Shown here piece by piece: positions 5,589 through 37,369 of a stretch of DNA of 64,000 nt. The DNA is from Owenia fusiformis (lineage: Eukaryota; Annelida; Polychaeta; Sabellida; Oweniidae). Where the stretch lies: NCBI GenBank assembly GCA_903813345.2, contig CAIIXF020000009.1:10226030-10290029 (forward strand), given 5' to 3'. A model generated the notes under the pieces. It saw only the letters and a list, made by a program, of their open reading frames with translations. It was not told where the DNA came from and searched no databases. Both the position numbers and the translations under genes were made by a program. Positions within the stretch are counted from its first letter, which is position 1; each line of letters begins with the position of its first letter.

Positions 5589-8500
5589 GTAATTGTGCAT
5601 GTAACAGTTAAACCTGTGTATCTGAACCCCTCCCCAATCTGAACACCTCTCCAATCTGAACACCTCTCCAATCTGAACACCTCCTCAATCTGAACACCTC
5701 CAATCTGAACACCTCTCTAATCTGAACACCTCCCCAATCTGAACACCTCCCCAATCTGAACACCACCCCAATCTGAACACCTCCCCAATCTGAACACCTC
5801 CCCAATCTGAACACCTCCCTAATCTGAACACCACCCCAATCTGAACACCTCCCCAATCTGAACACCTCCCCAATCTGAACACCTCCCCAATCTGAACACC
5901 TCCAATCTGAACACCTCCCCAATCTGAACACCTCCCTAATCTGAACACCTCTCCAATCTGAACACCTCCCCAATCTGAACACCACCCCAATCTGAACAAC
6001 TCCCCAATCTGAACACCTCCCCAATCTGAACACCTCCCCAATCTGAACACCTCCCTAATCTGAACACCACCCCAATCTGAACACCTCCCCAATCTGAACA
6101 CCTCCAATCTGAACACCTCCCCAATCTGAACACCTCCCTAATCTGAACACCTCTCCAATCTGAGCACCTCCCCAATCTGAACGCCTCCAATCTGAACACC
6201 TCCCCAATCTGAACACCTCTCAAATCTGAACACCTCCCCAATCTGAACACCTCCCCAATCTGAACACCTCTCCAATCTTAATATCACTCAACTTGAAATC
6301 TTTTTCTCAGTCATAGTTTTTTTCTCCTATTGACTCATATATGAAGAAACCTTGAAATGTGAACACCTGCTAATCAGAACATTTCATGCATGTCCCTCTG
6401 GTATTTGGAATTTCACTGTATTGGAAAAACTTTAGTTTAAAGTGTAGTAAAATCAAAGAACACTTTCAGAACTTATTGAGATATTTTTATTGATTTTGAA
6501 AAGTGTTTTTCATATTGTGGTTTCTCTGATGAATGAATGTGGATGTATAGTTGGCACAAATCTATTTAGCCATCCTAAATAAAATTTTAGGTTTCAATTT
6601 GATGAATTGAATTTTAATCACAATTCGTTCCTTCAATGAACAATGTATACTATCTAGAATTAAATTGGATTGAAAACTACTTTTTAGGTGTGGACAAACT
6701 TTGATGCTGCTAGATGGTGTGGGGTGCGGGACACTGCCCACGAAAAGATGTACATTTTGTTAACAGATCCAGTACCAGAGGTAACAATGCTGACTTCTTG
6801 ATTTTTTTGTTTTTATGAAAAAAGTATGAAAATATTCATGCTCAAGGATAAACTGCATCAATTTATAACCATCTTAAATGAATAGATACTGCACTTTGCG
6901 GATATTTAAATATGATGTTTACTTATAACTCTTTTACCTATTGTTGTGTTGTTGTTGGTAAGGCCAAAATGAAATTACCATATTAACTATATCCCATTGT
7001 CTCCTGAAGGAGAAGCCTCACAGTCAACTGTAAAACAACATTTTTGACACACATAAACAGCATGTCTTAAGTGTCAACTTATTTTAATTACTAGGTACGT
7101 GCTGCGGCTGTGTATGCTTTGGGCACCTTCATAGCGAACAGTACGGAAAGGAGTGACCACGCTAACAACATTGACCACAGTGTAGGGCTAACACTCATTA
7201 ACTCCACGTATGATGGCAGTCCACTCGTTAGAAAGGTCAGTCAAAAAGTTTTAGGAAAAATTCTCTTATTGTATTGTTTGTATTCATCTAATGTCGAATT
7301 TCAATTCAATATATTTCATAATTTCTTAAAATTAGAGTGTCTAAAGCCGTGTGATAAAGATATGTTCATTAAGAGAAAATGCAAAGTTGTCCTGATGTCC
7401 TCTTTCAGTTATTAAGTACTAGATATAAAGAATACATTATTTATTTGTTTTCACATGTTGACCTTGACCTTGGTATCATAATGGTGTATATGGTATTAAT
7501 GAGTCACATGGTCATTTCTAGCTATAAGTGTATACAATAATATTACATGTGGAGTACATACTCCTGGATTGTATAATGTCATTCCTAAGGAATAAATTGT
7601 GAAAAAGTATTGAATTCCACATTCAAAGAATGGTTGAAAATTCCTAAATTGTTGTTGATTTCTGTTAAATTATTAACAACAAAAACAGAATGGCTTAATA
7701 TGTAGGAACCTATTAAAACTTGTTCAATAATATTTATTCATTATTTTTATTCATATTTAGTTCTGCATGATCTACCGACACATGTTGTTGCTTAAATGTG
7801 CTTTGAGAGAGGATGGCTCACACAAACCTAAACTAAACAATAGTTTTATTTCTTCTATTTCAAAAATTACATTTAGAAGGACGTAATGAGTTTTTTTAAC
7901 ACTTCATTTTTTCTTACATTGAAGTTCAGAAGTTTTTTTGCAGCTTCCTCAAGGGATAACCTTCTCTGCCTGCCCCCCCCCTCTTCCTCTTTAATACCTG
8001 CATTTTATTCAAATTTTGACTGAATCCAAATGTCTTCTAGGAGCTAGTCTATGCATTACTCTGCCTTGTACAGCAATTTGAGAATCAGTTTGCTGCAATG
8101 GCATTCAGATTCCAAGAGGAAGAGAAGTCTCATCACAGGCATAAAAGAACAAGCTCTGGGAGTGGTGGGTGAAAGAATGTATTATCCATGTATTGGCCTC
8201 TATGTGCAGTGGCCCCTTCATGCATTTGCCTCTCTGTGCATTTGCCTTTCCGTGCATTGGCCTCTTTGTGCATTTGCCTCTCCATGTATTGGTCTCTCCA
8301 TACATTGGCCTCTCCATGTATTGGCGTCTCCATGTATTGGCCTTTCCGTGTATTGACCATTCCATGCATTGACCTTTCCATGCATTGGCCTCTCCATGTA
8401 TTGGCCTTTCCATGTATTGGCCTCTCCATGTATTGGCCTCTCCATGTATTGGCCTTTCCAGGTCTTGACCACTTCGTGCATTGGCCTTTCCATGCATTGA

Positions 8501-23500: not shown

Positions 23501-26500
23501 TCATGCAAACCCCTTTTTCTTGGTTTCAATTTCTTGTTTTCTGACATTGTCTCACATCTTAAGAATTCTTGGATGTGATCACCTGCTAATCTGAACACAT
23601 TATGTCACCACCAGAAGTGATGACATATGATTATAGTCCCCAACTTGTTTGTGGACTGTGTCCGGCATTTGGCGTTTTGTGGTTGGTGTTCAGTGGTTGG
23701 TGTTTGTAACAAATTGCAGGTGATGACATTTTGCCTTGCTTGTAAGTTGTATTTATGCTTAGATCAATTCTCTATTTTCCATGAACACTGTATTGCAAAA
23801 TGAAAGTGAGATGTGTTACATGTTTATCTATCAAATTTTTTTTTTCTATCAAAATTGTACTTTTTATTGCCAGGCTCTGGACTAGTGACAGATTGGGAAC
23901 AGCAAACAGGAATTTTGTTGGCATCGGGAGATGTGCGGATAATACGTGTTTGGGATGTCAATAAAGAACTAAAAATAAAGGTGAGTTTTATGGTGTAGTC
24001 ATCGCACAGGAAGTTGTTTCAAGACACTAGCATGTCCTTTTTTGGTTCGTTCTTTAGAAGCCTTTGACTTTTTGAATACCTGGGCATTTCTGATTTTTTG
24101 CTTGCTTTTGCCATATTTTTGATGTTCATTTTGGCAATATTATTGAACATATAGAAAATTAGACATATTTTAATTCTAGCACACGTTTTTTTAGTTTCTT
24201 TGAAACATAGGATAATTTACCACTTGAGCTACGGAGCCGACTGGCTTTTACACCACACTGGATTTTCAAGGATTTGATTGTCCCCTTTGACATACAAGTG
24301 TGGTATTAGTGTGTGAATAGTATGGTCAGTTTATTTTCAAGTAAATATTACCAGATTTACATTTTCAGCGACCTCAGCTCTTATGAATTTTTTCTCAACA
24401 GAGTGTAAAATTCACATTTTATACAAAGTATACAAATACTTTATCATATTGGCAGGTTGCAAGCAGATTTATAACAGAGTGCCATGTACAGGGTGGTCCA
24501 AAAAATGGGACACTCGTATTTCAAAAATAAATATTGATTTTCCTGTAATTATCCCATCGAACTATCACTGATCTGTAAATAGATACTTTTTTTATAATGG
24601 ACAATAAGAAGTGATGAAAAATAGATATCCATTACATTTATCTGATGATTTACACTTTTGACATTAATTATTTGCTGGTTTTCATTACAAATATAATTGG
24701 ATGACTTGGGAAGTTTTACATGTACATGTATGCCTGTAGTGTAAACTTTGAGTACATGTATATTGTTGACCTCTACCTATGTACAAACCTGGTCATTTGT
24801 ATGGAGATTGCAAGAGCTGTTAAGGGGGGGGGTACATCCTCGTATCAAAGAAGCTGTTGTATATTTTCATTCAAAGACTTGTCAAGCGTTTTAGTCATTA
24901 AATGAATCAAGAGATCTTTTTGCGTCCTTCCAAGTGAACAATGACACGACAGCGATTCTTAAATTAATTAGCCAATCAGGATGTGAGCAAGATACAGCAT
25001 GCAGTCAACACCTAAGTACCACATGTGTATATTTTCTAATTAGTAATATGTTTTTTCTTTGATTCAGATGATATCCCTATTAACAAAAAAAGAACACAAA
25101 CATCTCTGCCTCATGCTTTTCCCTTCATTTAAATAATATGTTTTTCTTTGATTTAAATGCTATCCTTATTAACAAATGACAATAAACATCTCTATTTCAC
25201 ACTTCTCCCTTCTTAGCTAATCGAAAAATAAGAGCTGAGTAACACTTAGTTGATAGTCACACTATATGAGATATCAAAATAACACCTTTAAATAAGGACG
25301 TTATGTCTATTCAGGCAAGTGTTTATGAAACCATTAATGAAAAACAACTTTCAAGGATCTTTATCTGTTCATCTTTTGAATGATTTCACTCGTCTTTTCC
25401 TTTTGGCACATACTGGATCAGAGTTTTGATTAGTTAAACCTGTGCCAAAGTGAACTATGATTCTTTCAAATATTTCTTGGTCAGATTTTTGAACAGATGA
25501 TGAGTTTTCTATGAAGCCTTCAGTAATATAATCATGAATAGACATTTTGAAACAGCTTTATTTGCAATATAATGGGGATCAAAATACTTAAAATAATTAC
25601 TGGTTATTAATTATAATCATTCATAAAATATGTTCATCAGTCCCTAAATTTGAATCCAATTTTAACATCAAAAGCAAAATACTTGGCAGCTCAAGATTCA
25701 AACGTCATGGTTTTTTGGTGATATCTTTTGCATTCCTTTGGTCGTGTCTTTTTCTAATTTCTGGAATCAAGCATGTACTTAAATTACCTTAGAAACTCAC
25801 CTCAGCTAAACTACTGTTGTTTATTTATTGGATAATTGTCACCAATTGACATGTTAAAAACACAACCAGGATGATTATCCCACGTAACAAAGCTCGAGGG
25901 GGATATGTAAAAACTGTCCGTCCATCTATCTATCTCCGTTTGTCCACTCGATAACTAAAATACTGGTTTTTGATTCAAACAAAAGCTTATAGATGTAGGA
26001 CCTCTGCTCAAGAAGGAATTTTCAATAGGGCTACCCTATCCAATTCAAAATGGCTACCATTTTTCATAAAAAATGTAATCTTTGATAACTCAAATACAGT
26101 AGATGGATTTAGTTCAAATTTTATTTGCTGATGTCTTGGGACACAGGAGCTTTGATCAAGAAGAAATTTTCAAGATGGCCACTGACTTTCAAAATGGCTG
26201 CCATTTTTCATAAAAAACCTAATCTTTGATAACTCAAATACCAGTAGGCAGATTTGGTTTTAACTTTATATGCTGGTACCTAGGGACAAAGGAGCTTTGC
26301 TCGAGAAGAAATTTATAAGATGACAGCTGAATTTTAAAAATTGTCTGCCATTTTCCGAACAAAAAAACGTAACCTTTGATACCTCAAATACCAGTAGGAT
26401 TTGGATAAAATTTTATATGCTGATACCTAGGGACAAAGGAGCTCTGTTCAAGTAGAAATTTTCAAGATGGCTGCTATTTATCAAAACATGTTTTGTTCGG

Positions 26501-29500
26501 TGGGATTAGCTAATCCGTGGAGTTGTTGTAACTAGTTGAATATGAGGTGACAAAGAGTTCAACCCCCATCATATGTCATATATGCAGACACCGCACCTAT
26601 AAGAGCTACCATTTCTGATATTCAGTACATTTTCATAGTGAAAGACTTGCGAAGAGCTGTCACAATGGCGAACTGCACATTTGTTCACAATCTCACTAAA
26701 AATGAGAAATGCACAAACATCTCTCAGTTCGGAGGATCGATGAAACCGAAAGACAAGAACAATTTACCTATAACATTAGTATTTCAAATTTCAGTTGCAG
26801 TCGCAATATGTCTGATGAATCTTTTAGTTGTGATGTCAATAATCCGCTATAAAAAATTGCAGACGGTTTCAAACATATTCCGTGGATATCTTGCTTTAAA
26901 TGACACCGTATTTGGAGCTACAGTTGTTGTACGAGGACTATTACAACTATCTGGAACATTAAGTAAGACGATACCATGTATGATTATGAACGTTTTCATT
27001 GCCGCACCAGCTGGTGTTACAATGACGGGTGTACTACTACTGTGGATTGAAATTTACCTAACCATAAGGCGAGTATCGATAAATGGGGCATTTAGCAAGA
27101 AAGTAGCTTTTCGTCTTATAGGGTTGACTGAGATTGTATGGACAGTGTACGTTTGCAGCTTTCTTTTGTTCAATGATAACAAACGTACAGACGAATCTTG
27201 CCACTTCGGCAATGGCCTCACACACAAAAATCATTTGATAGGATTGTGCATAATTATGTTCTTGCACTTTATTGCCCTCATTGTTCTACAATGTTTAACA
27301 TTCTGGAACCTTCACAAACATGTTGCAAATCTTAAGAGGCTTGGTATGATTACACCAAAAGCACCCTTGAACAATGACAGGAATATGACGAATATGAATC
27401 AAAGAATCACAGTAATGGAGAATCCAGCATATTCCAATCCATCGCCAGGTAGCTTCAAGCAGGAATGTTCTGATGGTGAATCAAAGGCATCCGTGGAAAC
27501 CATATCGACAGATCAACAAATGCAAAATGATGTTATCAAAAATACCACGCTGTATTATCGATGGTCATTGCGCATGTCAAGGCTCGCTAAGCTCATAAGT
27601 TTCATTTTTCTGTCTTTTGCCATATGTTACGTTCCATTCATCATTTGTGTGTTTCTGTACGCAATCCATCCTGGGCAGTATGTCAGTTCACAAATTAACT
27701 ACATGTATATAGCTTTTACCATTTTAGCTTTTAACTCATTAACCAATGTTGTTATTTATCTAACTAGAAGTAAGGAGTACAGGAGAGCATTTAAGCACAT
27801 ACTTACATGTAAGCGGGGTATTGTACCAATATGACTCTCTTTATACAAAGTGTCTTTTTTTCATGACCACTACATGTCAAAGTTTTCATAAACCACAGAA
27901 ACAAAAAGTTTATTCTCTAGCAGTTAGAGACATCTGGGTTTTAATTAGTTTAATGGATGCATTATAAGGAATGTCGACAGTGAAAAAATGAGGTTGATTT
28001 TATTATGACTTAGCCCTCCCCCTGAAGATGGCCACTTAATTTCAAAATGGCCACCATTTTCCATTAAAAAAGGTAAAGTTTGATAACCAAATACCAGTTG
28101 GCGGATTTTGTTCAAATGTTATATACTGGTGCTTCAGGGATATAAAACTGCTCAAGAAGGAATTTCCAAGATGGCTGCTCGATTCAAAATGGCTGCTATT
28201 TTTCATGAAAAAATGTAATTATTGATAATTTAAATACCAGTTATACTCTATTTAGTGCATATTTTATCTCTATCATTTAATGTTCAAAATGATGAGGTAT
28301 TTATTATTAAAATATGTTTTATTTGGTGGATCTGTTGCTGTATTCTAGTTTGACTTGTCAGTACTGTGTATAAACTAGAAAGTGTAATATGTCATGCATA
28401 AATAGTTAGTAATCCTATTGTGTTTAAGGATATCATATTGTGTCTCTGTTGTAAATAATGAATGACTTTCTCCAGATTGAGGTTATACCATCAGACAGAC
28501 CTTATCTGATTTTACCTTTATTGTTTAGTACTGACTATATTGTATGATTCAAACATGAAATGAGAGTGTGGAGGATACACAATGTGAAATTATGTATAGC
28601 AAAAAATTAAGTCTCAACAAGGAGGCCATATTGTGAAAATGGCATTAGTCAAGAATCCATGCTTGCTAGGAAAACTAGGTTGGAAAGACATCCTGGACTG
28701 TGTCATTTAATGTTTTTTTAAAACACTGTTCATGAGTTAAGCCTTGCCCAAGTCGGTCTCTTTTACTTATTTTGAATTCAAGATCAGATAAGTAAAAAAT
28801 ACGGAGGCTAGTTCATGAGGTATACTATTAAGAACATGTAATAGGGCCATTGTTTTCAGTCAGAGGGGAGGGGCGCGATTGTGCCATAAACAAGCCAAAA
28901 AATAAGATTTATTTTGAATTTTACAGCATTTTAAAGCTCTTTTCTTCTTTCTCATGGTTGTATTTTCATTGATTATGGATGAAAGATATTGATTTACCCC
29001 CCCCCCCTGGCTACGCCTATGTGTAATATGTCAACAATGAGAAAATATGTTTTTGGCTAGTCATTTGAATGAATGTTATTTGCCCTATTAAATAAATTAA
29101 TGTTGCTTGTTAGGTGTTCATATAAATAAAAAATATAAAATCAATTAACTAAAACCATTTTGTTATCTATAATAGTTATGTTATTTTTATCCAATCGAAC
29201 GAAGTTCGGAGGGATATAGGGAACGCCTCCGTCCGTCCGTCCGTCCATCCGTACGTCCGTCCGGGCAATAACTCAAATACCGTTGGCCCGATTTTGTTCA
29301 TATTTTGTACACATATACCCTATGGGGGTAGAAGTTCTGCTCGAAAGCCGATTTTCAAAATGGCCGCTCATTTCAAAATGGCGGCCATTTTAGTGCCGAT
29401 TTTACAGTAATTTAGGTGCAATATGTAAAACTGTAATAGCAATATGTTTTTAGTGTAAAAAAATTATAAAGGACATTAATAAAGCTACAAATGTAGATAT

Positions 29501-32500
29501 TAAAAAAGCACATGGCAGCCATCTTGAAAAATGGCGGCATTTACTCATTATTTTATGATTTTTTGCTGTAACTCGAAAAGTAGTGGAGCGATTTTGTTCA
29601 TATTTGGTATGTGAATACTATAAACATTGCACACTGTCTAAAGACACTTTTGGTAGAAGGTGGCCATTTTGAAAAATTGTCGTCTTTTTAACGTATTTTA
29701 CTATAACTCGAAAAGTAGTGGAGCGATTTTGTTTATATTTGGTATGTGAATACTAAAAGCATGGCACACTGTCTATTGACACTTTAGGTAGTAGGCGGCC
29801 ATTTTGAAAAATGGCCACCATTTTTACAATTTTTACTATAACTCGAAAAGTAGTGGAGCGATTTTGTTTATATTTGGTATGTGAATACTAAAAGCATGGC
29901 ACACTGTCTATTGACACTTTAGGTAGTAGGCGGCCATTTTGAAAAATGGCCACCATTTTTACAATTTTTACTATAACTCGAAAAGTAGTGGAGCGATTTT
30001 GTTCATATTTGATATGTGAATACTCTAAGCATGGCACATTGTCTAATAAAAATTTGGGGAGTAGTCGGCCGTTTTGAAAAATGGCCACCATTTTTATGTG
30101 TGTTATTTTACAAGTACATGTGTGCGATTTTTCAAAAATATTATAGGTGGCTACTTAAAAGCATATTATTTCTTCTGATGACAACTTGGCTAGTGAGCAA
30201 CCATTTTGAAAATGGTGGCCTTTCTGGTGTGTTTTTATGATATTTGCTATATATTTCGTTTGTAAAAATGCCAGCCATTTCTATTCGATGGGATTCGCTA
30301 CGCTTTGGCGTTGCCGTTGTTCTGGTTTGAGTATTATATATTGGAAAGTCACATACTATAGGTTAAATATCTAGGTTTTGGGTTTTCAATTTGTTGCCCT
30401 TATTTATTTTATGTTTTGATATATCTTTCAGGTTGAAAACCTAGGTTCGTAATGTTCAGAGCACCTTCATCAAGTTTCATTTCATAATTTGTGTTTTCAA
30501 TATATTGCCGTTTGTGTCCCACCTCAGTGATGTTTTTCAAAATACTACTATTTCTAATAGGGTACTCAATTCAAATTGGCACCATTTTCACTGGCCTCCA
30601 CTTGGTTATTAAGACATTACGCTTTATAACAAAATGGACGAACTTCCATCGGAGGAAATATTTATTTTCGTCATTTTCACCTAGAAGGAGGTCGATTTGT
30701 ATCCACACATTTTATCCTTATGTTAATAGTAGCATCTGGTTCAGCAACTAGGATGTCAATAGGCCATAAAGTAAAGCAACCAAGACTTGAAATTCACCAG
30801 ATAGGGTCTCGGTTGCTGAAGTGAGGAATTCTCACTCGATTATTGGAGCTGCTATTAACTGACTGTCTATTAACTTTATTACAGCTAAAATATTTGGACA
30901 CAAATTGACCTCCTTATTGGTGACAATGATGAATATAAAAATATCCTCCAACGAAAGTTCATCCATTTTGTTATAAAGACATACGTAACATCTTTAAAAC
31001 TGGTTGGGGACCAGTGATTTTCAGGAGAATTATATTTATGATTCTCGTCCATTTATGGATTTGGTCAAATTTTTAAGCTTTTTGGTATAGGCCCTCTACT
31101 TACCTGAGAAGGAATTCCTTATATGGTGTCATCTCATGGATGTATATTTTGCCAAAAGGAGACCATATTACTACACTACTGCCAGGTTATTTCGTTCATG
31201 AAATGATCAAAATGATGACTGATTTCATAAAATACTGGATTTGTCTTAAATTTGGTGCTACTTCATTTTGGCGGTTTTATATTTTTGGCCCTATTGATGA
31301 CTATTTAATGAGGCTGTTTTTCAAGTGTCCCCGACATCCTCCTGTCTAACCAAATTCAAAATATTCATTGTCAGTGTTGTTGATGAACAATTGCTTCAAT
31401 ATTTCTTGTTGTTCCTATCAATTTAAATGGCCTGGCCATCTTGGTATCTTTCTTATATCTGTAAAATGCACCGAAATGAAAAACATGTCAAATTCCCAGG
31501 GATTTTGGTGACTATTAAATTTGGCAATTTTTTCTATTCGCAAAAATACACCAATTTAAAACGCTCGCCAAATTAAAGACAAATACAGTATGTTTTGTTT
31601 CGTGGGATCTGATACTCAGAGGAGTTGCAATTTTTTTTATAACTTTTTTTGTACTTTGTCTTTTGATCTGAAACTTTCTGACTTTTTATGTCACCACCAA
31701 AAAATGGTGACATATTGTTATGGTCACCGTTTCTTTGTGACGATATGTGTCTGTTAACGCCTTTGACCTATGACTAGTCATTTCTGAGATCATAGTTGTA
31801 ATTCTCTATAGCCTTACCATTTAAGGGTTAAGAGAGAAATTACATCAAATAGGTTTAAATGACACACCTTAAGAGAGAAATGACATCGAATTTACATAAA
31901 TCATATGTAAGAAACAGAGGGGAAATTGGCTAGCAGATTAGATTTAGGGTATGTATGTAGATGAATTGATTGACACATTTACTGTTTATTGTATTATTCA
32001 GGATCTCCCAACTGGGGCTGATAGCTGTGTAACAAGCCTGACTCATGACACATTTGGTCAATCTCTTGTTGTGGCAGGTTGTATTACTGCTTATTGTATT
32101 ATTCAGGATCTCCCAACTGGGGCTGATAGCTGTGTTACAAGCCTGACTCATGAGACATATGGTCAGTCTCTTGTAGTGGCAGGTTGTATTACTGCTTATT
32201 GTATTATTCAGGATCTCCCAACTGGGGCTGATAGCTGTGTAACAAGCCTGACTCATGACACATTTGGTCAATCTCTTGTTGTGGCAGGTTGTGTTACTGC
32301 TTATTGTATTATTCAGGATCTCCCAACTGGGGCTGATAGCTGTGTTACAAGTCTGACTCATGAGACATATGGTCAGTCTCTTGTAGTGGCAGGTTGTATT
32401 ACTGCTTATTGTATTATTCAGGATCTCCCAACTGGGGCTGATAGCTGTGTTACAAGTCTGACTCATGAGACATATGGTCAGTCTCTTGTTGTGGCAGGTT

Positions 32501-35500
32501 GTATTACTGCTTATTGTATTATTCAGGATCTACCAACTGGGGCTGATAGCTGTGTTACAAGCCTGACTCATGACACATTTGGTCAGTCTCTTGTTGTGGC
32601 TGGTTGTATTACTGCTTATTGTATTATTCAGGATCTACCAACTGGGGCTGATAGCTGTGTTACAAGCCTGACTCATGACACATTTGGTCAGTCTCTTGTT
32701 GTGGCTGGTTGTATTACTATTCATTGTATTATTCAGGATCTCCCAACTGGGGCTGATAGCTGTGTTACAAGCCTGACTCATGACACATTTGGTCAGTCTC
32801 TTGTTGTGGCTGGTTGTATTACTATTCATTGTATTATTCAGGATCTCCCAACTGGGGCTGATAGCTGTGTTACAAGCCTGACTCATGAGACATTTGGTCA
32901 GTCTCTTGTTGTGGCTGGTTGTATTACTGCTTATTGTATTATTCAGGATCTCCCAACTTGGGCTGATAGCTGTGTTACAAGCCTGACTCATGAGACATTT
33001 GGTCAGTCTCTTGTTGTGGCTGGTTGTATTACTGCTTATTGTATTATTCAGGATCTACCAACTGGGGCTGATAGCTGTGTTACAAGCCTGACTCATGACA
33101 CATTTGGTCAGTCACTTGTTGTGGCAGGTTGTATAACTATTCATTGTATTATTCAGGATCTCCCAACTGGGGCTGATAGCTGTGTTACAAGCCTGACTCA
33201 TGACACATTTGGTCAGTCTCTTGTTGTGGCTGGTTGTATTACTGCTTATTGTATTATTCAGGATCTACCAACTGGGGCTGATAGCTGTGTTACAAGCCTG
33301 ACTCATGAGACATTTGGTCAGTCTCTTGAAGTGGCAGGTTGTATTACTGCTTATTGTATTATTCAGGATCTCCCAACTGGGGCTGATAGCTGTGTTACAA
33401 GCCTGACTCGTGAGACATTTGGTCAGTCTCTTGTTGTGGCAGGTTGTATTACTGCTTATTGTATTATTCAGGATCTCCCAACTGGGGCAGATAGCTGTGT
33501 TACAAGCCTGACTCATGAGACATTTGGTCAGTCTCTTGTTGTGGCTGGTTGTATTACTGCTTATTGTATTATTCAGGATCTACCAACTGGGGCTGATAGC
33601 TGTGTTACAAGCCTGACTCATGACACATTTGGTGGTCAGTCTCTTGTTGTGGCAGGTTGTATTACTGCTTATTGTATTATTCAGGATCTACCAACTGGGG
33701 CTGATAGCTGTGTTACAAGCCTGACTCATGAGACATTTGGTCAGTCTCTTGTAGTGGCAGGCTGTATTACTGCTTATTGTATTATTCAGGATCTCCCAAC
33801 TGGGGCAGATAGCTGTGTTACAAGCCTGACTCATGACACATTTGGTCAGTCTCTGGTAGTGGCAGGTTGCGGCGATGGGTCTGTCAGATTGTACGACAGG
33901 AGGCTCTCTCAGAGTGAATGGTAAATGATCTTTCATTTTGTTTGTTGAAAAATATTCAATACAGATTTTTTGTGAGATAATTAATTAATTAATGTAAAAT
34001 CGGGAATTCAGGATCCTGCAAATTTAAAGTGTTTTGTATGTCTTTTCTAGTTATTATTGAATGTAATTGGAACTCTAACCCTCTGAAAATAAATGGTTTA
34101 TTTGATCAGTCAGATCTGACAAGGTTTATCTGTTTTTTCCAGCCGTGTGATGACATTGCGAGAACATAGTGGCTGGGTTGTGAAAGTTCATCTTCAACAG
34201 GGTATTGATGGAAAGATTATCAGTGGCAGGTATGTAGACTAGACGTCCTCTGATCACAGGGCTTCAAAATTTAGAATATCTTCTTTCTTTTTACCCCCTA
34301 CTATAACCAAGTTGGAAGCGCCTGATTAAACTGAATCACGTAATCTAATGATGCGCCGATGACGTATACATGATTGCAGTTGCAGTGTTGGGACAGCGAA
34401 TCAAATTGCGAGTTCTTAATCGGGGAAATGCTAACTGCTTATAGCAGGGGGGAAGAAGGAGGTACAGATTCTGGACACCTGCTTAGGAGGATGTAGACTA
34501 GAGGGCGTGGCCTTTGTTAGTTCAATTGGGTAGGCCACGTCATAACTCCCTGTTAAGTCCCGATTTTTACTGCTTATCCTGATTTTTTAGTCAAACCCTC
34601 GGTTTTCTAAAATCCTGCTGATTCATCGAATTATTAAACCCCAATTTTTCTCCTTATTTTTAGCAATCCATGTTTTCTCTCGATTTTTTCATATTGTCCA
34701 TTTATTTTTCAAAACCCCGATTTTTCTCTTGATTTCTTTTAGAAACTAAGATTCTCCAAATTTTTCAAATGATACCAAGATGTTCTATTCTCCTCCACAT
34801 ATGACTGAGCAATGAGGGATTTAAGTGACCATGTCAGAAATAGGTTTGTGCCACTTTTAGCCAAGTCAATTTCATGATCATGATCATGATTCATGATGTA
34901 ATAACAAACATCAGGATATTACTGATCTGGCATTGTCACTTAAATCCCTTAGAACTCAGTTATCCATGAAGGAAAATAGACAACTTTGATAGAAAGAGGA
35001 CATCATAACCTGTCAGATGGTAGCTGTAAAATTTTCCTATTATTACTCTTCTTTGAGAAATTAGTAATTTAATCTCGATTTCCTTTTTTGGGACACCCTG
35101 TATATTCACATCATGCTATTGTATGTTTCAGCGTTGGTGGTGATATCCGTTTTTGGGACCCCAGGTTCACAGAGTCAGTAAAGACAATCTCAACTTCTCA
35201 GGGCCTAACATCATTAGAGGTGCATGAGTATGCTGATGTGCTTGCGTGGTAAGTTTCATATTTCTTAAGTCTCCCTAACCCTACTTAGTAGAACAGGAAC
35301 GATCTTATTATGTCACCACCAGACGAGATGACATTGTAATAGTCTCCAACCTTTTTTGGACATTTTGGTGGTGGACCTTCGGTGGTCAGCAATCGCATCT
35401 GTAACAAATGGCAGGTGGTGACATTTGTCAGGTTAATGCCTTGTTATGGTAGTTTTTTTCATTTTTTGAATTATTTATTTTTGGCATAACTTTATGTGTA

Positions 35501-36204
35501 TATTGTTTATTTCAGCGGAAGTGTCAACCAGTACATTAGTGTGTTCAACCAATCAGGGGACAGTCTCAGCAATATCAAATACCACGAGGGCTTCATGGGG
35601 CAGAGAATTGGGCCAATCACATGCATGGCATTTCACCCACATAGGGTAAGTTATTGAAATAACCTAGTTCAGTGAGTATCTAGTTCCATGACTGCCTAAA
35701 ATTTCACTTCAAGCATCTAAATTTCATTGTTGCAGGGAATGTTGCATTTCATTGACTTTGTTTTTAAAATGTTGAAGTGTTAATGTCTAATCGCTTTGCC
35801 TATGTGTTTTATTTTTGTTATATTTTAGTGACTCTCTGTACCAAATGCATGACATAAATGGCAATCGTGTGCAAAGACTGAACCGAATGCATTCGCTTTT
35901 TTCTCCATTCGGTATTTTACCGTGTCGGCATTTCACAAAAAACGACTTTTGAAAATATCAACAAAATGCGTGTTTTGCGTGATATTTGATCATACACGCT
36001 AAATTGATGCGTGATTTCTATTTTTCCAGCAAATGCGTGACAATCACGCCTAATGCGTGAAGGTTGGGAGGGCAGCTACCTGTTATATTTCAATGACTAC
36101 CTCTTGTATTCAATGACTACCTCTTCTTTTTCCAGGTGAAGTTGGCTGCAGGGAGCACAGATGCCTTTGTCTCAGTTTACAGTACACCAGACAAGAAGAG
36201 GTGA
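5424..36204 (+). CDS. RPTOR: Raptor (regulatory-associated protein of mTOR), C-terminal part, 20 exons per transcript
   Basis: Raptor is the cytosolic and lysosomal scaffold of mTORC1 that recruits TOS-motif substrates such as S6K and 4E-BP and is phosphorylated by AMPK. Translated exons align in order with vertebrate raptor from about the last third of the HEAT/ARM repeats to the C-terminus. Exons: 5424-5588, 6688-6780, 7095-7235, then either 8041-8164 or 10961-11093, 12014-12112, 13021-13152, 14771-14895, 16079-16191, 18507-18657, 19095-19166, 19399-19564, 19760-19874, 20690-20814, 21415-21522, 23874-23980, 33790-33920 (or an upstream acceptor of the 105-bp array), 34143-34229, 35132-35248, 35516-35645, 36136-36204. 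Every junction has AG/GT and compatible phase. The visible part encodes 789 or 792 aa, depending on which alternative exon is used. Landmarks include [49 protein letters not shown] and GFMGQR. The N-terminal caspase-like domain is not in the window. Confidence 0.95.
5618..6285. repeat. Minisatellite, unit about 18 bp (CCCCAATCTGAACACCTC)
   Basis: About 36 tandem copies of 17-18 bp lie in a raptor intron, starting roughly 30 bp after the donor at 5589. Copies differ by C/T changes and by loss of one base. The antisense frames are open only because the unit is usually a multiple of three without stops; the resulting low-complexity ORFs are not genes. The same 'gaacacct' word seeds other repeats in the window (58060-58100, 61205-61880). 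Confidence 0.95.
6688..6780 (+). CDS. RPTOR: Raptor exon: ARM repeat ([15 protein letters not shown])
   Basis: 31 codons, phase 0 in and out, between 'tttttag' and 'gtaaca'. [14 protein letters not shown] and LLTDPVPE match the conserved vertebrate segment with only conservative changes. Confidence 0.93.
7095..7235 (+). CDS. RPTOR: Raptor exon: ARM repeat ([12 protein letters not shown])
   Basis: 47 codons, phase 0 in and out, between 'ttactag' and 'gtcagt'. It contains [15 protein letters not shown] and DGSPLVRK, the sequence that precedes the duplicated exon pair. Confidence 0.93.
8041..8164 (+). CDS. RPTOR: Raptor alternative exon copy A (mutually exclusive candidate)
   Basis: 124 nt, phase 0 in, phase 1 out, between 'cttctag' and donor 'gtgggt'. 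It encodes [20 protein letters not shown] followed by AFRFQEEEK and a basic, serine-rich end. Human raptor has ELVVALSHLVVQYESNF and then FIEEEKN at this place. Copy B (10961-11093) encodes the same segment with different residues. Joining A to the exon at 12014 makes an Asp codon across the junction. Using both A and B, or neither, breaks the frame. A 16-bp minisatellite starts about 20 bp past its donor. Confidence 0.88.
8186..8625. repeat. Minisatellite, unit 16 bp (CCATGTATTGGCCTCT)
   Basis: About 27 degenerate copies lie directly downstream of alternative exon A and between the two alternative exons. All six frames show open low-complexity peptides here; these are by-products of the repeat and are not annotated. 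Position close to an alternative donor makes an effect on splicing conceivable, but nothing in the sequence proves it. Confidence 0.93.
9178..9310. repeat. Palindromic MITE-like element
   Basis: Left arm 'aacaaatatttcactct' pairs with right arm 'agagtgaaatatttgtt'. Inner arms 'ctttcacaagtgatattcca' and its near complement continue the hairpin around 'cgaagcccgaagggc'. About 130 bp, no ORF, located between the two alternative raptor exons. Confidence 0.6.
9874..10205. mobile_element. Non-autonomous DNA element with ends CAGGGGCGGATC / ATCCGCCAGTG
   Basis: The ends are inverted: left CAGGGGCGGATCTGGG, right reading CACTGGCGGATTAGGG on the opposite strand. The interior is a run of self-complementary 'ggcccaaaatttt' words and G or C homopolymers. 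Internal ORFs are low complexity and not genes. Ends of this type occur in hAT-like and related MITEs; the family is uncertain. Confidence 0.55.
10961..11093 (+). CDS. RPTOR: Raptor alternative exon copy B (mutually exclusive candidate)
   Basis: 133 nt, phase 0 in, phase 1 out, between 'gacgtgcag' and donor 'gtgggt'. It encodes [20 protein letters not shown], then [10 protein letters not shown] and a tail longer by three residues than copy A. Roughly half of aligned residues are shared with copy A and with vertebrate raptor, so both copies are under protein-level constraint and the duplication is not recent. The identical phases and the same donor hexamer as copy A allow a straight swap. Confidence 0.87.
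11094..12013. other. Raptor intron with a dispersed TGTCACC...GGTGACA repeat copy
   Basis: No further exon is seen. About 11855-11955 is one copy of a roughly 120-bp dispersed family ('agtctccaac...atctgtaacaaatgg...ggtggtgacat') that recurs near 17030, 23605, 31688 and 35310. Confidence 0.5.
12014..12112 (+). CDS. RPTOR: Raptor exon: linker with AMPK-like site
   Basis: 99 nt, phase 1 in and out, between 'acttgtag' and 'gtaagt'. It encodes a Ser-rich segment with [12 protein letters not shown]. Met at -5, Arg at -3 and Leu at +4 of the third Ser fit the AMPK consensus, in the place of the human Ser722 region. The phosphosite reading is an inference; the exon is supported by phase and splice signals. 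Confidence 0.78.
12176..12722. mobile_element. TTAA-flanked element carrying a nested palindromic MITE
   Basis: TTAA at 12172-12175 and 12723-12726 flanks inverted ends: left CCCTTAAACGGTTAGG, right reading CCATTCAATGGTTAGG on the opposite strand. A 141-bp palindromic element (12542-12682) is inserted inside. A right-end-like copy ('ctctatagccttaccatttaagggttaa') also occurs near 31800-31830. Confidence 0.5.
12542..12682. repeat. Palindromic MITE, family ATGCCT(G/T)GGTCACATTTGC, copy 1
   Basis: The arms 'gtcacatttgc...ggccgattgagta' and 'tgatcgaccag...gcaaatgtgac' are inverted copies of each other. A second copy with the same ends lies at 16653-16794. Confidence 0.65.
13021..13152 (+). CDS. 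RPTOR: Raptor exon: linker with conserved AMPK site (Ser792 equivalent)
   Basis: 132 nt, phase 1 in and out, between 'gattatag' and 'gtcagt'. It ends with [17 protein letters not shown], which aligns with the human motif containing Ser792: Met at -5, Arg at -3 and a hydrophobic residue at +4 are kept. In mammals AMPK phosphorylation here creates 14-3-3 binding and inhibits mTORC1. Confidence 0.88.
13264..14210. repeat. Minisatellite, unit 28 bp (CCTCAAAGTGGAGGAGATATTGACATRT)
   Basis: About 33 tandem copies lie in the raptor intron, starting 110 bp after the donor at 13153. Variants alternate between AAAGTGG and AAAATGG and between ATATCC and ATGTCC. Neighbouring copies often alternate in type, suggesting higher-order duplication of unit pairs. 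Confidence 0.95.
14247..14385. repeat. Palindromic MITE-like element
   Basis: Arms 'gttaacgattttcccgtaat...aataacgtca' and 'tgacgttatta...accgttaac' are inverted around 'gcaatataggccgaaggcac'. It abuts the 3' end of the 28-bp minisatellite. No coding capacity. Confidence 0.5.
14771..14895 (+). CDS. RPTOR: Raptor exon: DPYPE repeat
   Basis: 125 nt, phase 1 in, phase 0 out, between 'tttttag' and 'gtaaca'. It encodes [20 protein letters not shown], matching vertebrate IWRVLLHLAADPYPEVSDVA. Confidence 0.92.
15027..15480. repeat. Two partial copies of the CAGGCCCGTAGCCAGG element
   Basis: Bases 15030-15130 match one arm of the element at 20452-20660 (shared 'aattttggtccaaaaatggc' word in opposite orientation). 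Bases about 15366-15440 hold a second fragment, 'agccccatagccagggggtg'. Both are decayed and non-coding. Confidence 0.6.
16079..16191 (+). CDS. RPTOR: Raptor exon: Ser/Pro-rich linker
   Basis: 113 nt, phase 0 in, phase 2 out, between 'ttatttag' and 'gtaagt'. ARPRQV followed by [10 protein letters not shown] aligns with vertebrate ARPQRV...TQSAPASPTN, which confirms the frame and the direct junction with the exon ending at 14895. Confidence 0.9.
16653..16794. repeat. Palindromic MITE, family ATGCCT(G/T)GGTCACATTTGC, copy 2
   Basis: Same ends and inverted arms as the copy at 12542-12682 ('gtcacatttgctccgatt' against 'cgcagcaaatgtgac'). It is intronic and has no ORF. Confidence 0.65.
17376..18482. 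mobile_element. 1.1-kb palindromic mariner-like element with TA target duplication
   Basis: Flanked by TA (17374-17375 and 18483-18484). The ends are CAGGGTGGGCCAATAAAAAT and its exact complement. The two halves are long inverted copies (each about 500 bp, a few percent diverged) meeting near 17930. No transposase frame remains. CAGGGTG-type ends with TA duplication are typical of Tc1/mariner elements. The right end lies only 24 bp before the raptor exon at 18507. Confidence 0.8.
18507..18657 (+). CDS. RPTOR: Raptor exon: linker to FDKGP motif
   Basis: 151 nt, phase 2 in, phase 0 out, between 'atttttag' and 'gtaagt'. [20 protein letters not shown] corresponds to vertebrate AQYTP...RTRKMFDKGPEQ. 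Confidence 0.92.
18885..18995. repeat. AT-rich short tandem repeat (ATACA/ATGCA words)
   Basis: Degenerate 5-bp repeat of 'caatacaata' type, about 110 bp, in a raptor intron. Confidence 0.8.
19095..19166 (+). CDS. RPTOR: Raptor exon: short acidic linker
   Basis: 72 nt, 24 codons, phase 0 in and out, between 'attttag' and 'gtgaga'. It encodes [19 protein letters not shown] and so on. Poorly conserved, but splice signals and phase fit on both sides, so it could also be a cassette exon. Confidence 0.75.
19399..19564 (+). CDS. RPTOR: Raptor exon: YFAQP segment entering the WD40 domain
   Basis: 166 nt, phase 0 in, phase 1 out, between 'catcag' and 'gtaatt'. [20 protein letters not shown] and REWRLL match vertebrate WSARYFAQPVMKIPEEHDLE and REWRFL. 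Confidence 0.93.
19760..19874 (+). CDS. RPTOR: Raptor exon: WD40 blade
   Basis: 115 nt, phase 1 in, phase 2 out, between 'ttttcag' and 'gtgagt'. [26 protein letters not shown] match vertebrate RLDDQIFLNRN and VVKFHPFTPCIAVAD. Confidence 0.94.
19933..20194. repeat. Direct tandem duplication of about 130 bp
   Basis: Two near-identical copies starting 'gaacatgcccttattttgtg' (about 19934 and 20064), differing at only a few bases. Intronic and recent. Confidence 0.85.
20249..20332. repeat. Short perfect-arm hairpin
   Basis: The arms 'ctaaaacaactttattcatt' and 'aatgaataaagttgttttag' are reverse complements, extended by 'tcttcagaga'/'tctctgaaga', around a loop of about 20 bp. Intronic. Confidence 0.75.
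20452..20660. mobile_element. 209-bp MITE with ends CAGGCCCGTAGCCAGG
   Basis: The ends CAGGCCCGTAGCCAGG and CCTGGCTACGGGCCTG are perfect inverted repeats. The flanks show a 5-bp direct repeat TTTGT (20447-20451 and 20661-20665). Its right end lies only 29 bp from the raptor exon at 20690. Partial copies occur at 15027-15480. Confidence 0.75.
20690..20814 (+). CDS. RPTOR: Raptor exon: WD40 blade
   Basis: 125 nt, phase 2 in, phase 1 out, between 'atttcag' and 'gtatgt'. [19 protein letters not shown] and [10 protein letters not shown] match vertebrate FWDWEKGEKLDYFHNGNP and TRVTAMEYLN. Confidence 0.94.
21415..21522 (+). CDS. RPTOR: Raptor exon: WD40 blade
   Basis: 108 nt, phase 1 in and out, between 'tttgcag' and 'gtgagt'. 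DDGAVRLWK and [18 protein letters not shown] match vertebrate DDGAIRVWK and [17 protein letters not shown]. Confidence 0.95.
21645..22555. mobile_element. Crypton-like element fragment with palindromic end
   Basis: Bases 21655-21770 form a long palindrome ('gtttactgtcaaaattatat' against its complement). The rest carries a minus-strand ORF (21776-22090) with a DUF3504-like look and an end segment 'attattcaccg...accaatcaaaatcgag'. The boundaries are approximate and no target duplication was identified. Confidence 0.45.
21776..22090 (-). pseudogene. Fragment of Crypton/KIAA1958-type (DUF3504-like) protein
   Basis: A 104-aa ORF with [22 protein letters not shown]-type spacing (Gly-Gly-x-Tyr, Leu-Lys, Arg-Tyr-Ile-Arg) followed by Phe-Lys-Ala-Ser-Asn. 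This resembles the N-terminal core-binding part of Crypton-derived tyrosine-recombinase proteins (KIAA1958, QRICH1, ZMYM families). No catalytic tyrosine-recombinase domain follows, so it is probably a relic. The identification rests on remembered family style, not on a search. Confidence 0.45.
22577..23484. mobile_element. Decayed Tc1/mariner-type transposon
   Basis: It begins CAGGGTGTCC after TA, and the right end 'ctttcttacggtcctg' is the inverted copy of the left 'caggaccgtaagaaag'. The inverted repeats extend about 140 bp. The interior still encodes short pieces of a transposase in broken frames, including the signature AHSPDLNPP (near 23195-23222) followed by a premature stop and [16 protein letters not shown] is characteristic of the catalytic region of mariner-superfamily transposases. 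Confidence 0.75.
23874..23980 (+). CDS. RPTOR: Raptor exon: WD40 blade, upstream of the repeated-acceptor intron
   Basis: 107 nt, phase 1 in, phase 0 out, between 'tgccag' and 'gtgagt'. [11 protein letters not shown] and [17 protein letters not shown] match vertebrate MVVDWEQETG and SGDVRIVRIWDTDREMK. Its downstream intron (at least 8 kb) hosts the GPCR gene and ends in the 18-copy acceptor array. Confidence 0.95.
23981..26664. other. Raptor intron, 5' part: repeat-rich, no exon seen
   Basis: It holds a solo mariner-type end at about 24488-24530 ('cagggtggtccaaaaaatgg') and, at 25870-26530, a copy of the dispersed 'caaaatggctgcca...cggtgggat' family that lies just upstream of the GPCR gene. 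Confidence 0.5.
25870..26530. repeat. Dispersed repeat, 'aaaatggctgccattttt' family, upstream of GPCR
   Basis: It starts near 'tatcccacgtaacaaagctcg', has short CCGTCCATC repeats, then three imperfect direct repeats of roughly 120 bp containing 'tttgataactcaaataccag' and 'aaatggctgccattttt', and ends near 'gttcggtgggattagctaat'. Related copies: 28010-28330, 29194-30310, 46940-47090, 53590-54340. Confidence 0.7.
26665..27834 (+). CDS. Class A (rhodopsin-like) GPCR, orphan, intronless, nested in raptor
   Basis: 389 aa from the ATG at 26665 (upstream in-frame codons back to 26638 lack an ATG). Extracellular N-terminus with NxS/T sites at N3, N9 and N18. Seven hydrophobic segments lie at about 36-60, 72-95, 104-133, 148-170, 190-213, 309-333 and 345-366. 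TM2 has LALND. C105 and C179 can form the conserved disulfide. The DRY position is EIY (129-131), TM6 has FAICYVPF where FxxCWxP is usual, and TM7 ends NVVIY (361-365) in place of NPxxY. The third intracellular loop is long (about 95 aa) and polar. These departures are common in lineage-expanded invertebrate receptors; the ligand is unknown. It is on the same strand as raptor and flanked on both sides by copies of one dispersed repeat. Confidence 0.88.
   Translation: MANCTFVHNLTKNEKCTNISQFGGSMKPKDKNNLPITLVFQISVAVAICLMNLLVVMSIIRYKKLQTVSNIFRGYLALNDTVFGATVVVRGLLQLSGTLSKTIPCMIMNVFIAAPAGVTMTGVLLLWIEIYLTIRRVSINGAFSKKVAFRLIGLTEIVWTVYVCSFLLFNDNKRTDESCHFGNGLTHKNHLIGLCIIMFLHFIALIVLQCLTFWNLHKHVANLKRLGMITPKAPLNNDRNMTNMNQRITVMENPAYSNPSPGSFKQECSDGESKASVETISTDQQMQNDVIKNTTLYYRWSLRMSRLAKLISFIFLSFAICYVPFIICVFLYAIHPGQYVSSQINYMYIAFTILAFNSLTNVVIYLTRSKEYRRAFKHILTCKRGIVPI
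27835..32001. other. Raptor intron, 3' part: repeat-rich, no exon seen
   Basis: Copies of the 'aaatggccgccattt' family lie at 28010-28330 and 29194-30310. The rest (30320-31950) is unique AT-rich sequence with no supported exon. A TGTCACC-family copy begins near 31688, and a TTAA-family end is near 31800-31831. Confidence 0.5.
29194..30315. repeat. Largest copy of the dispersed 'ccgtccgtcc...aaaatggcggcca' family
   Basis: It starts 'ttatccaatcgaacgaagttcggagggatatag', has a (CCGT)n-like tract, then about four tandem copies of a roughly 127-bp unit containing 'ataactcgaaaagtagtggagcg' and 'cggccattttgaaaaatggc', and ends 'tattcgatgggattcgctacgc'. The two ends are partly complementary ('atccaatcgaacg' / 'attcgatgggat'). 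No ORF. Confidence 0.8.
32002..33789 (+). repeat. RPTOR: Array of 17 extra splice-acceptor/exon units (105 bp each) before the terminal raptor exon copy
   Basis: Unit starts are at 32002 and then every 105 bp to 33577, and at 33685, with the final full exon at 33790 (18 copies in all; the 33577 unit has a 3-bp insertion). Each unit is the first 80 nt of a WD40 exon ([15 protein letters not shown]...) followed by about 25 nt of the intron end, 'tattactgcttattgtattattcag'. So each unit has its own AG acceptor in the same phase. The span to 33789 is 1788 nt, 596 codons, open throughout. Variation includes D/E, F/Y, one G-to-W, one H-to-R and V-to-E changes. Either the last acceptor is used, giving canonical raptor, or earlier acceptors add 35-aa multiples. 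Antisense ORFs are shadows. Confidence 0.95.
33790..33920 (+). CDS. RPTOR: Raptor exon: WD40 blade (last copy of the repeated exon start)
   Basis: 131 nt, phase 0 in, phase 2 out, between 'tattcag' and 'gtaaat'. [11 protein letters not shown] and [16 protein letters not shown] match vertebrate [11 protein letters not shown] and GDGSIRVYDRRMALSE. Only this copy continues into [11 protein letters not shown], so it is the functional full-length exon. The upstream copies are truncated. Confidence 0.93.
34143..34229 (+). CDS. RPTOR: Raptor exon: WD40 blade
   Basis: 87 nt, phase 2 in and out, between 'tttccag' and 'gtatgt'. [18 protein letters not shown] matches vertebrate RVMTYREHTAWVVKASLQ. Confidence 0.93.
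34230..35131. other. Raptor intron, no exon seen
   Basis: AT-rich sequence with short 'ccccgatttttct'-type degenerate repeats near 34550-34760. It ends with a solo mariner-type terminus, 'ttttttgggacaccctgta', near 35083-35103, just 28 bp before the next exon. Confidence 0.5.
35132..35248 (+). CDS. RPTOR: Raptor exon: WD40 blade
   Basis: 117 nt, phase 2 in and out, between 'gtttcag' and 'gtaagt'. [15 protein letters not shown] and [15 protein letters not shown] align with vertebrate NGDVRIFDPRMPESV and GLTALDIHPQADLIA. Confidence 0.94.
35309..35425. repeat. Dispersed repeat with ends TGTCACCACC / GGTGGTGACA
   Basis: About 115 bp bounded by inverted ends 'atgtcaccaccag' and 'ggtggtgacatt', with internal 'gtctccaac' and 'atctgtaacaaatggcagg'. 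Other copies lie near 11855-11955, 17032-17130, 23606-23732 and 31688. A MITE-like family. Confidence 0.7.
35516..35645 (+). CDS. RPTOR: Raptor exon: WD40 blade with GFMGQR
   Basis: 130 nt, phase 2 in, phase 0 out, between 'atttcag' and 'gtaagt'. [29 protein letters not shown] and AFHPH match vertebrate CGSVNQFTAIYNSSG, KYYDGFMGQRVGAI and AFHPH. Confidence 0.95.
36136..36204 (+). CDS. RPTOR: Raptor terminal coding exon with stop codon
   Basis: 69 nt, phase 0 in, after 'ttttccag'. [20 protein letters not shown] ends KKR and TGA at 36202-36204, parallel to vertebrate PHLAVGSNDYYISVYS...RVR-stop. The TGA is inside the first unit of a 57-bp tandem repeat. Confidence 0.95.
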   Translation: MKLAAGSTDAFVSVYSTPDKKR

Positions 36205-36485
36205 CTAGACCGCAACTCTAAAGTGGTCAGCCAGATCTATTCCCATTACATGTAGAGGTGACTAGACCGCAGCTCTAAAGTGGTCAGCCAGATCTATTCC
36301 CATTACATGTAGAGGTGACTAGACCGCAACTCTAAAGTGGTTTGCCAAATCTATTCCCATTACATGTAGAGGTGACTAGACCGCAACTCTAAAGTGGTCA
36401 GCTAGATCTATTCCCATTACATGTAGAGGTGACTAGACCGCAACTCTAAAGTGGTCAGCCAAATCTATTCCCATTACATGTAGAG
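36201..36485. repeat. 57-bp tandem repeat, 5 copies, starting at the raptor stop codon
   Basis: Units begin at 36201, 36258, 36315, 36372 and 36429. Each starts GTGACTAGACCGCAACTCTA, so the raptor TGA is the second to fourth base of unit 1. It would lie in the 3' UTR. The copies differ by only one to four bases. Confidence 0.95.
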
Positions 36486-37369
36486 GTCTATTCACAGACA
36501 TTTTGGGGATCTATTCACAGAACAGAATATCTATTTCCAGTACATGCACAGGTGTATAGTCAAGGAACACTATATCTATTACCAATCCGTGCACATGCTT
36601 GTACAGATATATTCACAAAACAATATATATATTCCCCGTACATCTACTGATCTCTATTATTTGCAGAACAGTATGTGTTTAGTCTGTTACCAGTATCCCT
36701 GAGCAGTATATTTATTGCCAGTTCACAGCACATGTAAATCTATTACCAGTACATGTACAGATGTCTCTTAACAGAACAGTATGAATATTGCCAGTACATG
36801 TGTATTTATCTTATTCTAGAAAAGTAAGTTTATCTATTGACAGAACATCATGTACAGATGTCTATTATTGCAATCTATTGCCAGTACACTTGCACAAGGT
36901 CATATATTGTTTAATCATATATTGTAACTCTATTAAGTGTTCAGCCAGATGTATTCTCTACATTCACAAAACAGTGTACATGTACCTATTTCCAGTATAT
37001 ATAAAGACTAGAGAGTATGTAATTACCTATTATATGTACATGTACATGTAATAGCATTTAGGTAGTTCTGCACCTTAATAAAAAATTGAAAAAGAATTGG
37101 GAAATTTCACTTCAAAATAATTTTAGCATAATATTTTCATTTTGAACTATGTGTTTTTATAATTTGTGAAAAAATCCACATAAAATTTTGAAAAATGTTA
37201 CCCACTTCTAATCATTAAATTTTGGTAATTGTAATTATGCAAATACTCACCATGCTGGTCTACCTTAAACAACCTGGTCTATTTTAAACAACCTGGTCTA
37301 ATGGTACACCTGGAAACATTAAACAAACTCTGCATTGAATTGATTGAATAGATTACACAGCCAATCTGC

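Follow-up and report, generated by a model that had tools for sequence, protein, structure and literature searches.

The window analysed here, a stretch of 64,000 nucleotides (nt) from the polychaete Owenia fusiformis (assembly GCA_903813345.2, contig CAIIXF020000009.1, positions 10,226,030 to 10,290,029 of the forward strand), contains the end of the gene for raptor (RPTOR), a core subunit of mTORC1, the main nutrient-sensing and growth-control complex. Exon mapping with human raptor as the query traced the raptor exons in order from the N-terminal end, 48 kb upstream of the window, to the last exon, which holds the stop codon at 36202-36204, a span of about 85 kb; the copies of the array described below were filtered from the resulting table. 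The Raptor_N profile gave four matches in genome G000, all of them at the raptor locus. One exon near the end of the gene is preceded by a 105-bp minisatellite of 18 copies, each of which carries the splice acceptor of that exon. The array exon together with the next exon matched residues 1160-1229 of a raptor chain in the PDB (E 6e-24), within the C-terminal WD40 region, which bears out the gene and the exon named in a first-pass annotation of this DNA. When the array DNA was searched in G000, no strong match was found elsewhere, and the other matches listed cover query positions 641-701, that is, the flank after the array.

Tandem Repeats Finder (TRF) described the array with a period of 105, 18.0 copies, 95% matches and a score of 3363, and the mean pairwise identity among the 18 head-to-tail copies was 95.1%. 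The acceptor string TTCAG/GATCT(A or C)CC, with the splice point at the slash, occurs 18 times, giving exon starts at 32002, 32107 and so on to 33685 and 33790; the 17 spacings are all 105 nt except one of 108 nt between copies 16 and 17, which results from an in-frame GGT duplication in copy 16. Columns 11-29 of the unit (the last 14 intron nt and the first 5 exon nt) are invariant in all 18 copies. Farther upstream the copies differ, and the acceptors are thus identical, as had been annotated, within these columns only. By our reading the unit probably combines 80 nt of exon with 23 nt of intron through a 2-nt filler that is absent from both original edges, close to the composition of about 25 nt of intron and 80 nt of exon proposed earlier; since 80 + 23 is not divisible by three, it would be the filler that made the frame. 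The preceding exon has a phase-0 end, followed by GTGAGT, and this phase together with the acceptor positions gives an in-frame join from all 18 acceptors. The array exon ends at 33920, followed by GTAAAT. The open frame runs through the array at 31948-33921 (658 codons) and is joined in phase to the flanking exons, and the 17 extra units amount to 1,788 nt. TRF, the acceptor positions and the phase therefore agree with the annotated 18 copies in the same phase and 596 codons open across one 3-bp indel. The annotated feature is confirmed, its reading frame included.

Table 1. Features of the raptor array region (positions in the window)
Feature	Position	Strand	Remarks
Raptor exon before the array	23874..23980	+	phase-0 end before GTGAGT
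105-bp minisatellite, 18 copies	31979..33869	+	proposed make-up of a copy: intron end (23 nt), filler (2 nt), exon start (80 nt)
3' splice site, copy 1	31970..32001	+	branch-point-like TTGAC (-29) and TTTAC (-21); top array acceptor score, 9.9
Exon if the first acceptor is used	32002..33920	+	1,919 nt, 596 extra codons
Copy 16, 108 bp	33577..33684	+	3-bp in-frame insertion
Ancestral exon, 131 nt	33790..33920	+	whole exon if the last acceptor alone is used
Next raptor exon	34143..34229	+	after a 222-nt intron

The copies are about 95% identical and carry few mutations, and the openness of the frame is for this reason weak evidence of translation. When the observed changes were placed at random, the chance of no stop was 0.71 in the exon-derived part and 0.56 in the intron-derived part, and the open frame was accordingly rejected as proof of selection. 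The excess of silent changes suggests more strongly that the copies have been translated. Changes were counted at every column varying among the 18 copies, leaving out column 105, which is a flanking base in copy 18. The exon-derived part showed 15 changes, 10 silent and 5 replacement, with 11 at third codon positions, while the same base changes placed at random in this part gave a mean of 4.3 silent changes (P = 0.00095 for at least 10). The changes common to at least two copies were silent in 7 of 9 cases (P = 0.00055) and those absent from copy 18 in 7 of 12 (P = 0.013). The array had been described as either young or selected to stay open; with the high identity of its copies and the silent excess (P 0.001), it is probably both.

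Since the array originated from a coding exon, the turnover of 18 copies was simulated forward under a simple rule, with base changes drawn uniformly and a D/E change at one codon exempt. In the models with no constraint or with the last copy alone constrained, copies turned over by random duplication and deletion, by right-end growth, or by conversion from the last copy (reseeding) at rates of 0.3, 0.6 and 0.9. The runs kept had 12-18 exon-part changes, with at least 6 shared changes in the reseeding set and at least 7 in the first set for the shared figures. At least 10 of 15 changes were silent in 0.04-0.22% of the runs kept under these models, reseeding at 0.3 and 0.6 included: P was 0.0004-0.0016 without reseeding and, respectively, 0.0018 and 0.0022 at reseeding rates of 0.3 and 0.6, and no run out of the 143 kept reached this fraction at 0.9. 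When every copy was translated, the same fraction was reached in 61% of runs if 15% of replacements were accepted and in 17% if 30% were accepted. Strict constraint on every copy reached it in all runs kept, with a mean silent fraction of 0.97, above the observed one. Shared changes were silent in at least 7 of 9 cases in 0.05% of runs with no constraint and 0.07% with the last copy constrained, as compared to 30% (15% accepted), 7% (30% accepted) and 99.6% (strict) with all copies translated. Given these simplifications, the support for translation is read as moderate, not overwhelming. Together with the silent excess it favours the possible translation of the array put forward in the first-pass annotation, and to that moderate degree the copies appear to be translated now or to have been so until recently.

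These results are best accommodated by a coding minisatellite lying across a splice acceptor, in which the first acceptor would be used routinely and raptor would gain 596 residues from a 1,919-nt exon; we prefer this reading tentatively, at a little short of an even chance. A 105-bp duplication would have linked the start of the raptor WD40 exon, through the 2-nt filler, with the 23 nt that end its intron; the duplicated unit would then have spread to 18 copies, presumably by unequal exchange. Seventeen 35-residue units would have been inserted in this way, each made of 27 residues together with the intron-derived ITAYCIIQ. As the left edge of the duplication lies at the branch-point region, only copy 1 is proposed to keep a full-strength 3' splice site, which would make the first acceptor the main one and have the array read as exon.

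The splice signals were examined from this point of view. The branch-point consensus yUnAy is matched in copy 1 by TTTAC at -21 and TTGAC at -29, within a 39-nt AG-free stretch, and no other copy has a match at either position; going by the consensus, these two may serve as branch points. Copies 2-18 carry ATTAC, GTTAC or ATAAC at -21, have their sole yUnAy match at -14, and are AG-free over 27 or 43 nt. With a matrix built from 24 other raptor acceptors, copy 1 scored 9.9 and copies 2-18 between 7.6 and 9.2, all inside the span of -0.4 to 15.7 that the 24 themselves gave in leave-one-out scoring; 2.4% of 5,865 AGs scored as high as the last copy. A model of the units as short exons separated by 29-nt introns (GCAG/GTTGTA...CAG) was rejected, as GTTGTA was absent from the GT sites that exceeded a score of 1.5 under a matrix of 20 raptor donors and the 76-nt exons would break the frame; an intron of 29 nt would also be extremely short for an animal.

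Several observations weigh against routine use of the first acceptor and translation of the array. Coding constraint was found in the exon-derived part, but neither among singletons nor in the intron-derived part. Of the five singletons in copies 2-17 two are silent, as neutrality would predict, and the replacements include G>W, H>R and a change in one V codon. In the intron-derived part, where changes seen in copy 1 alone were left out, 1 of 5 changes was silent; three of these five occur together in copies 8, 9 and 12 (copy 1 also carries one of the three), perhaps as the product of a single event. The third-position contrast between exon and intron parts reached a P of 0.058 only. Among the simulations, reseeding was less clearly excluded for the shared changes (0.57% and 0.94% at rates 0.3 and 0.6), and right-end growth, with 6 runs kept, is not comparable there. 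In-exon GGCAG sites, present in 11 copies, scored 7.8-10.4, as high as the array acceptors, so the 24-site matrix discriminates poorly and cannot by itself settle the acceptor. An insert of 596 residues in a conserved propeller would also be unusual.

The lengths of the neighbouring introns point the same way and lead to the strongest alternative, an intronic minisatellite in which the last acceptor (33790) alone is used by exon definition, normal raptor is made and copies 1-17 lie within a 9.8-kb spliced-out intron. In human transcripts upstream 3' splice sites are generally preferred, but with an upstream intron of more than 250 nt and a downstream intron of less than that, selection mimics exon definition and favours the nearest 3' site across the exon (PMC9225289). 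The intron upstream of the array is 8,021 nt long and the downstream one 222 nt, and for the 131-nt exon this human rule would favour the last acceptor and leave the array intronic. Minisatellites are also common in this genome: they make up 9.75% of the sequence in the raptor gene region, 13.1% of that in the window, and 4.5% (5,392 of 120,000 bases) of that in 12 sampled 10-kb stretches; coverage alone would place about 2.4 of the 25 placed raptor acceptors inside an array, and one was seen (three exons with unclear acceptors are left out of the 25). In so minisatellite-rich a genome an array crossing a splice site is not in itself surprising, and a unit length divisible by three would be a one-in-three event. 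The radical singletons, which are located in copies 10 and 13, fit as well. Nevertheless, the silent excess was seldom reproduced with the last copy alone constrained (P 0.0015-0.0022), and the branch-point matches seen in copy 1 are missing from the last copy. An intronic array appears unlikely, though slightly less so than the other alternatives.

The first-pass annotation had suggested a splicing ladder, in which several or all of the 18 acceptors would be used, so that raptor isoforms would carry anywhere from 0 to 17 additional units of 35 residues. All 18 acceptors are indeed in frame, the last 14 intron nt are invariant throughout, and the scores of 7.6-9.9 fall within the range of the other raptor acceptors. 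The upstream-preference and exon-definition rules of the human study (PMC9225289) disagree for this array, and a conflict of this kind could yield mixed use. The internal copies, however, have no yUnAy match at the usual distance, no examined signal clearly sets the internal sites apart, and the competing, frame-breaking GGCAG sites score equally well. A ladder of 18 rungs is not favoured, since copy 1 alone combines yUnAy at -21 and -29 with the top score; the signals favour one dominant upstream acceptor, or the last one by exon definition, over an even ladder, and we regard the use of several or all acceptors as rather unlikely. The further suggestion that regulated or stochastic acceptor choice would produce a graded series of raptor proteins, with copy number varying between individuals and tuning mTORC1 assembly or substrate binding, is more doubtful still. 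Tandem-repeat copy number in assemblies can be wrong, but an array expanded or collapsed relative to the real genome is very improbable here, with copies that can be told apart (of the 17 neighbouring pairs, only that of copies 6 and 7 is identical), a longest exact repeat of about 145 nt (tested in steps of 5) and no Ns in the window.

If the coding minisatellite is translated, its insert would lie between ELKIK and the final DLPTGAD, a junction that we take, from the raptor structure, to be strand d of one propeller blade running into strand a of the next, and the intron-derived ITAYCIIQ would replace ELKIK before each further DLPTG. The extra units did not qualify as WD40 propeller blades. 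The ancestral exon alone matched WD40 with an E of 0.00025, although its 21.9 bits fall short of the cut-off of 27, and no WD40 family was among the 13 Pfam matches at E of at most 1 obtained with copies 1-12 alone (420 aa), whose exon-derived part still matches raptor residues 1159-1184 (E 0.0004). With the whole array, phmmer aligned designed propellers (Tako8, best stretch 497-638), with no stretch passing on its own, and designed propellers were not among the 9 matches with copies 1-12 alone. Other Pfam matches on the array (DUF512 in 3-4 stretches, and others) were taken for artefacts of the repetitive query. AlphaFold2, run on the 639-residue array in single-sequence mode, predicted a regular structure in which each unit contributes three strands (predicted local distance difference test, pLDDT, 75.6; predicted template modelling score, pTM, 0.78), while a control from a reverse-strand frame of the array (199 aa, not length-matched) gave a pLDDT of 52.4 and a pTM of 0.45, and was also all strands. 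Foldseek gave 69 matches to the array model, none at E of at most 0.001 (best 0.098). As AlphaFold2 is reported to give confident but unrealistic beta-solenoids for repeats (PMC11795689), nothing is drawn from the predicted fold.

Other minisatellites in the window have a similar size and divergence (for example 57 bp x 5.1, 28 bp x 33.5 and 65 bp x 9.0), but the 105-bp array is the only one that contains any of the 25 placed raptor acceptors. Codon periodicity in the control arrays told little, since variable sites were scarce and a fixed register did not hold in the 147-bp array, the 79-bp array or the last unit of the 105-bp row. Some arrays lie close to raptor exons: a 17-bp x 39 array (5620-6278) begins 29 nt beyond an exon whose end lies near 5591, a 24-bp x 4 array (L002 3675-3771) begins about 2 nt after a raptor donor upstream of the window, and at 36136-36487 the last raptor exon passes into the 57-bp x 5.1 minisatellite, which starts at 36197 and whose first unit holds the last sense codon and the stop. 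The arrays at 26044-26471, 29353-29390 and 29560-30096 share related words around TTCAAAATGGC and GCCATTTT, e.g., TTTCAAAATGGCCGCCA, and are perhaps one dispersed repeat family. One raptor exon is present in two versions, from 8041 and from 10961, both matching human residues 661-690; they are possibly mutually exclusive, and the ends of both are approximate. Two open frames lie within raptor introns. An intronless one of 427 codons on the forward strand (26551-27831) matches rhodopsin-family G protein-coupled receptors (7tm_1, E 1.8e-15) and is nested in the intron just before the array, on the same strand as raptor, and a C2H2 zinc-finger frame on the reverse strand (2374-3675) lies within a long intron, on the opposite strand to raptor, with fingers that were recognised by eye and coincide with an 84-bp TRF array.

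Translation of the array would mean that mTORC1 tolerates, in one of its core subunits, a recent insert of about 596 residues that is built of repeats and derives in part from an intron. A protein repeat domain would then have arisen through tandem duplication over a splice acceptor, and its units could each be traced by their substitutions. The array is also a natural competition assay, in which near-identical acceptors stand at 105-nt steps and intron definition favours the first and exon definition the last; if the last site alone is used, exon definition can ignore 17 upstream decoys. A literature search that reached few subscription papers found no repeat array spanning a splice acceptor and no repeat insert in raptor. 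The nearest known systems are coding minisatellites of the mucin type, which are in-frame variable number tandem repeats within exons, and alternative 3' splice sites, to which tandem acceptors of the NAGNAG type belong. The raptor array resembles the mucin-type repeats in a unit that is a multiple of three, in high identity and in a frame kept open, and differs from them in that its unit holds the 3' splice site of an intron and would make peptide from former intron, its host is a conserved signalling scaffold, and its inclusion in mRNA is putative. With competing 3' splice sites, as described in the human study (PMC9225289), it shares several in-frame acceptors served by one upstream donor; unlike these, NAGNAG sites included, it offers eighteen near-identical sites, putatively used, that lie 105 nt apart and stem from tandem duplication.

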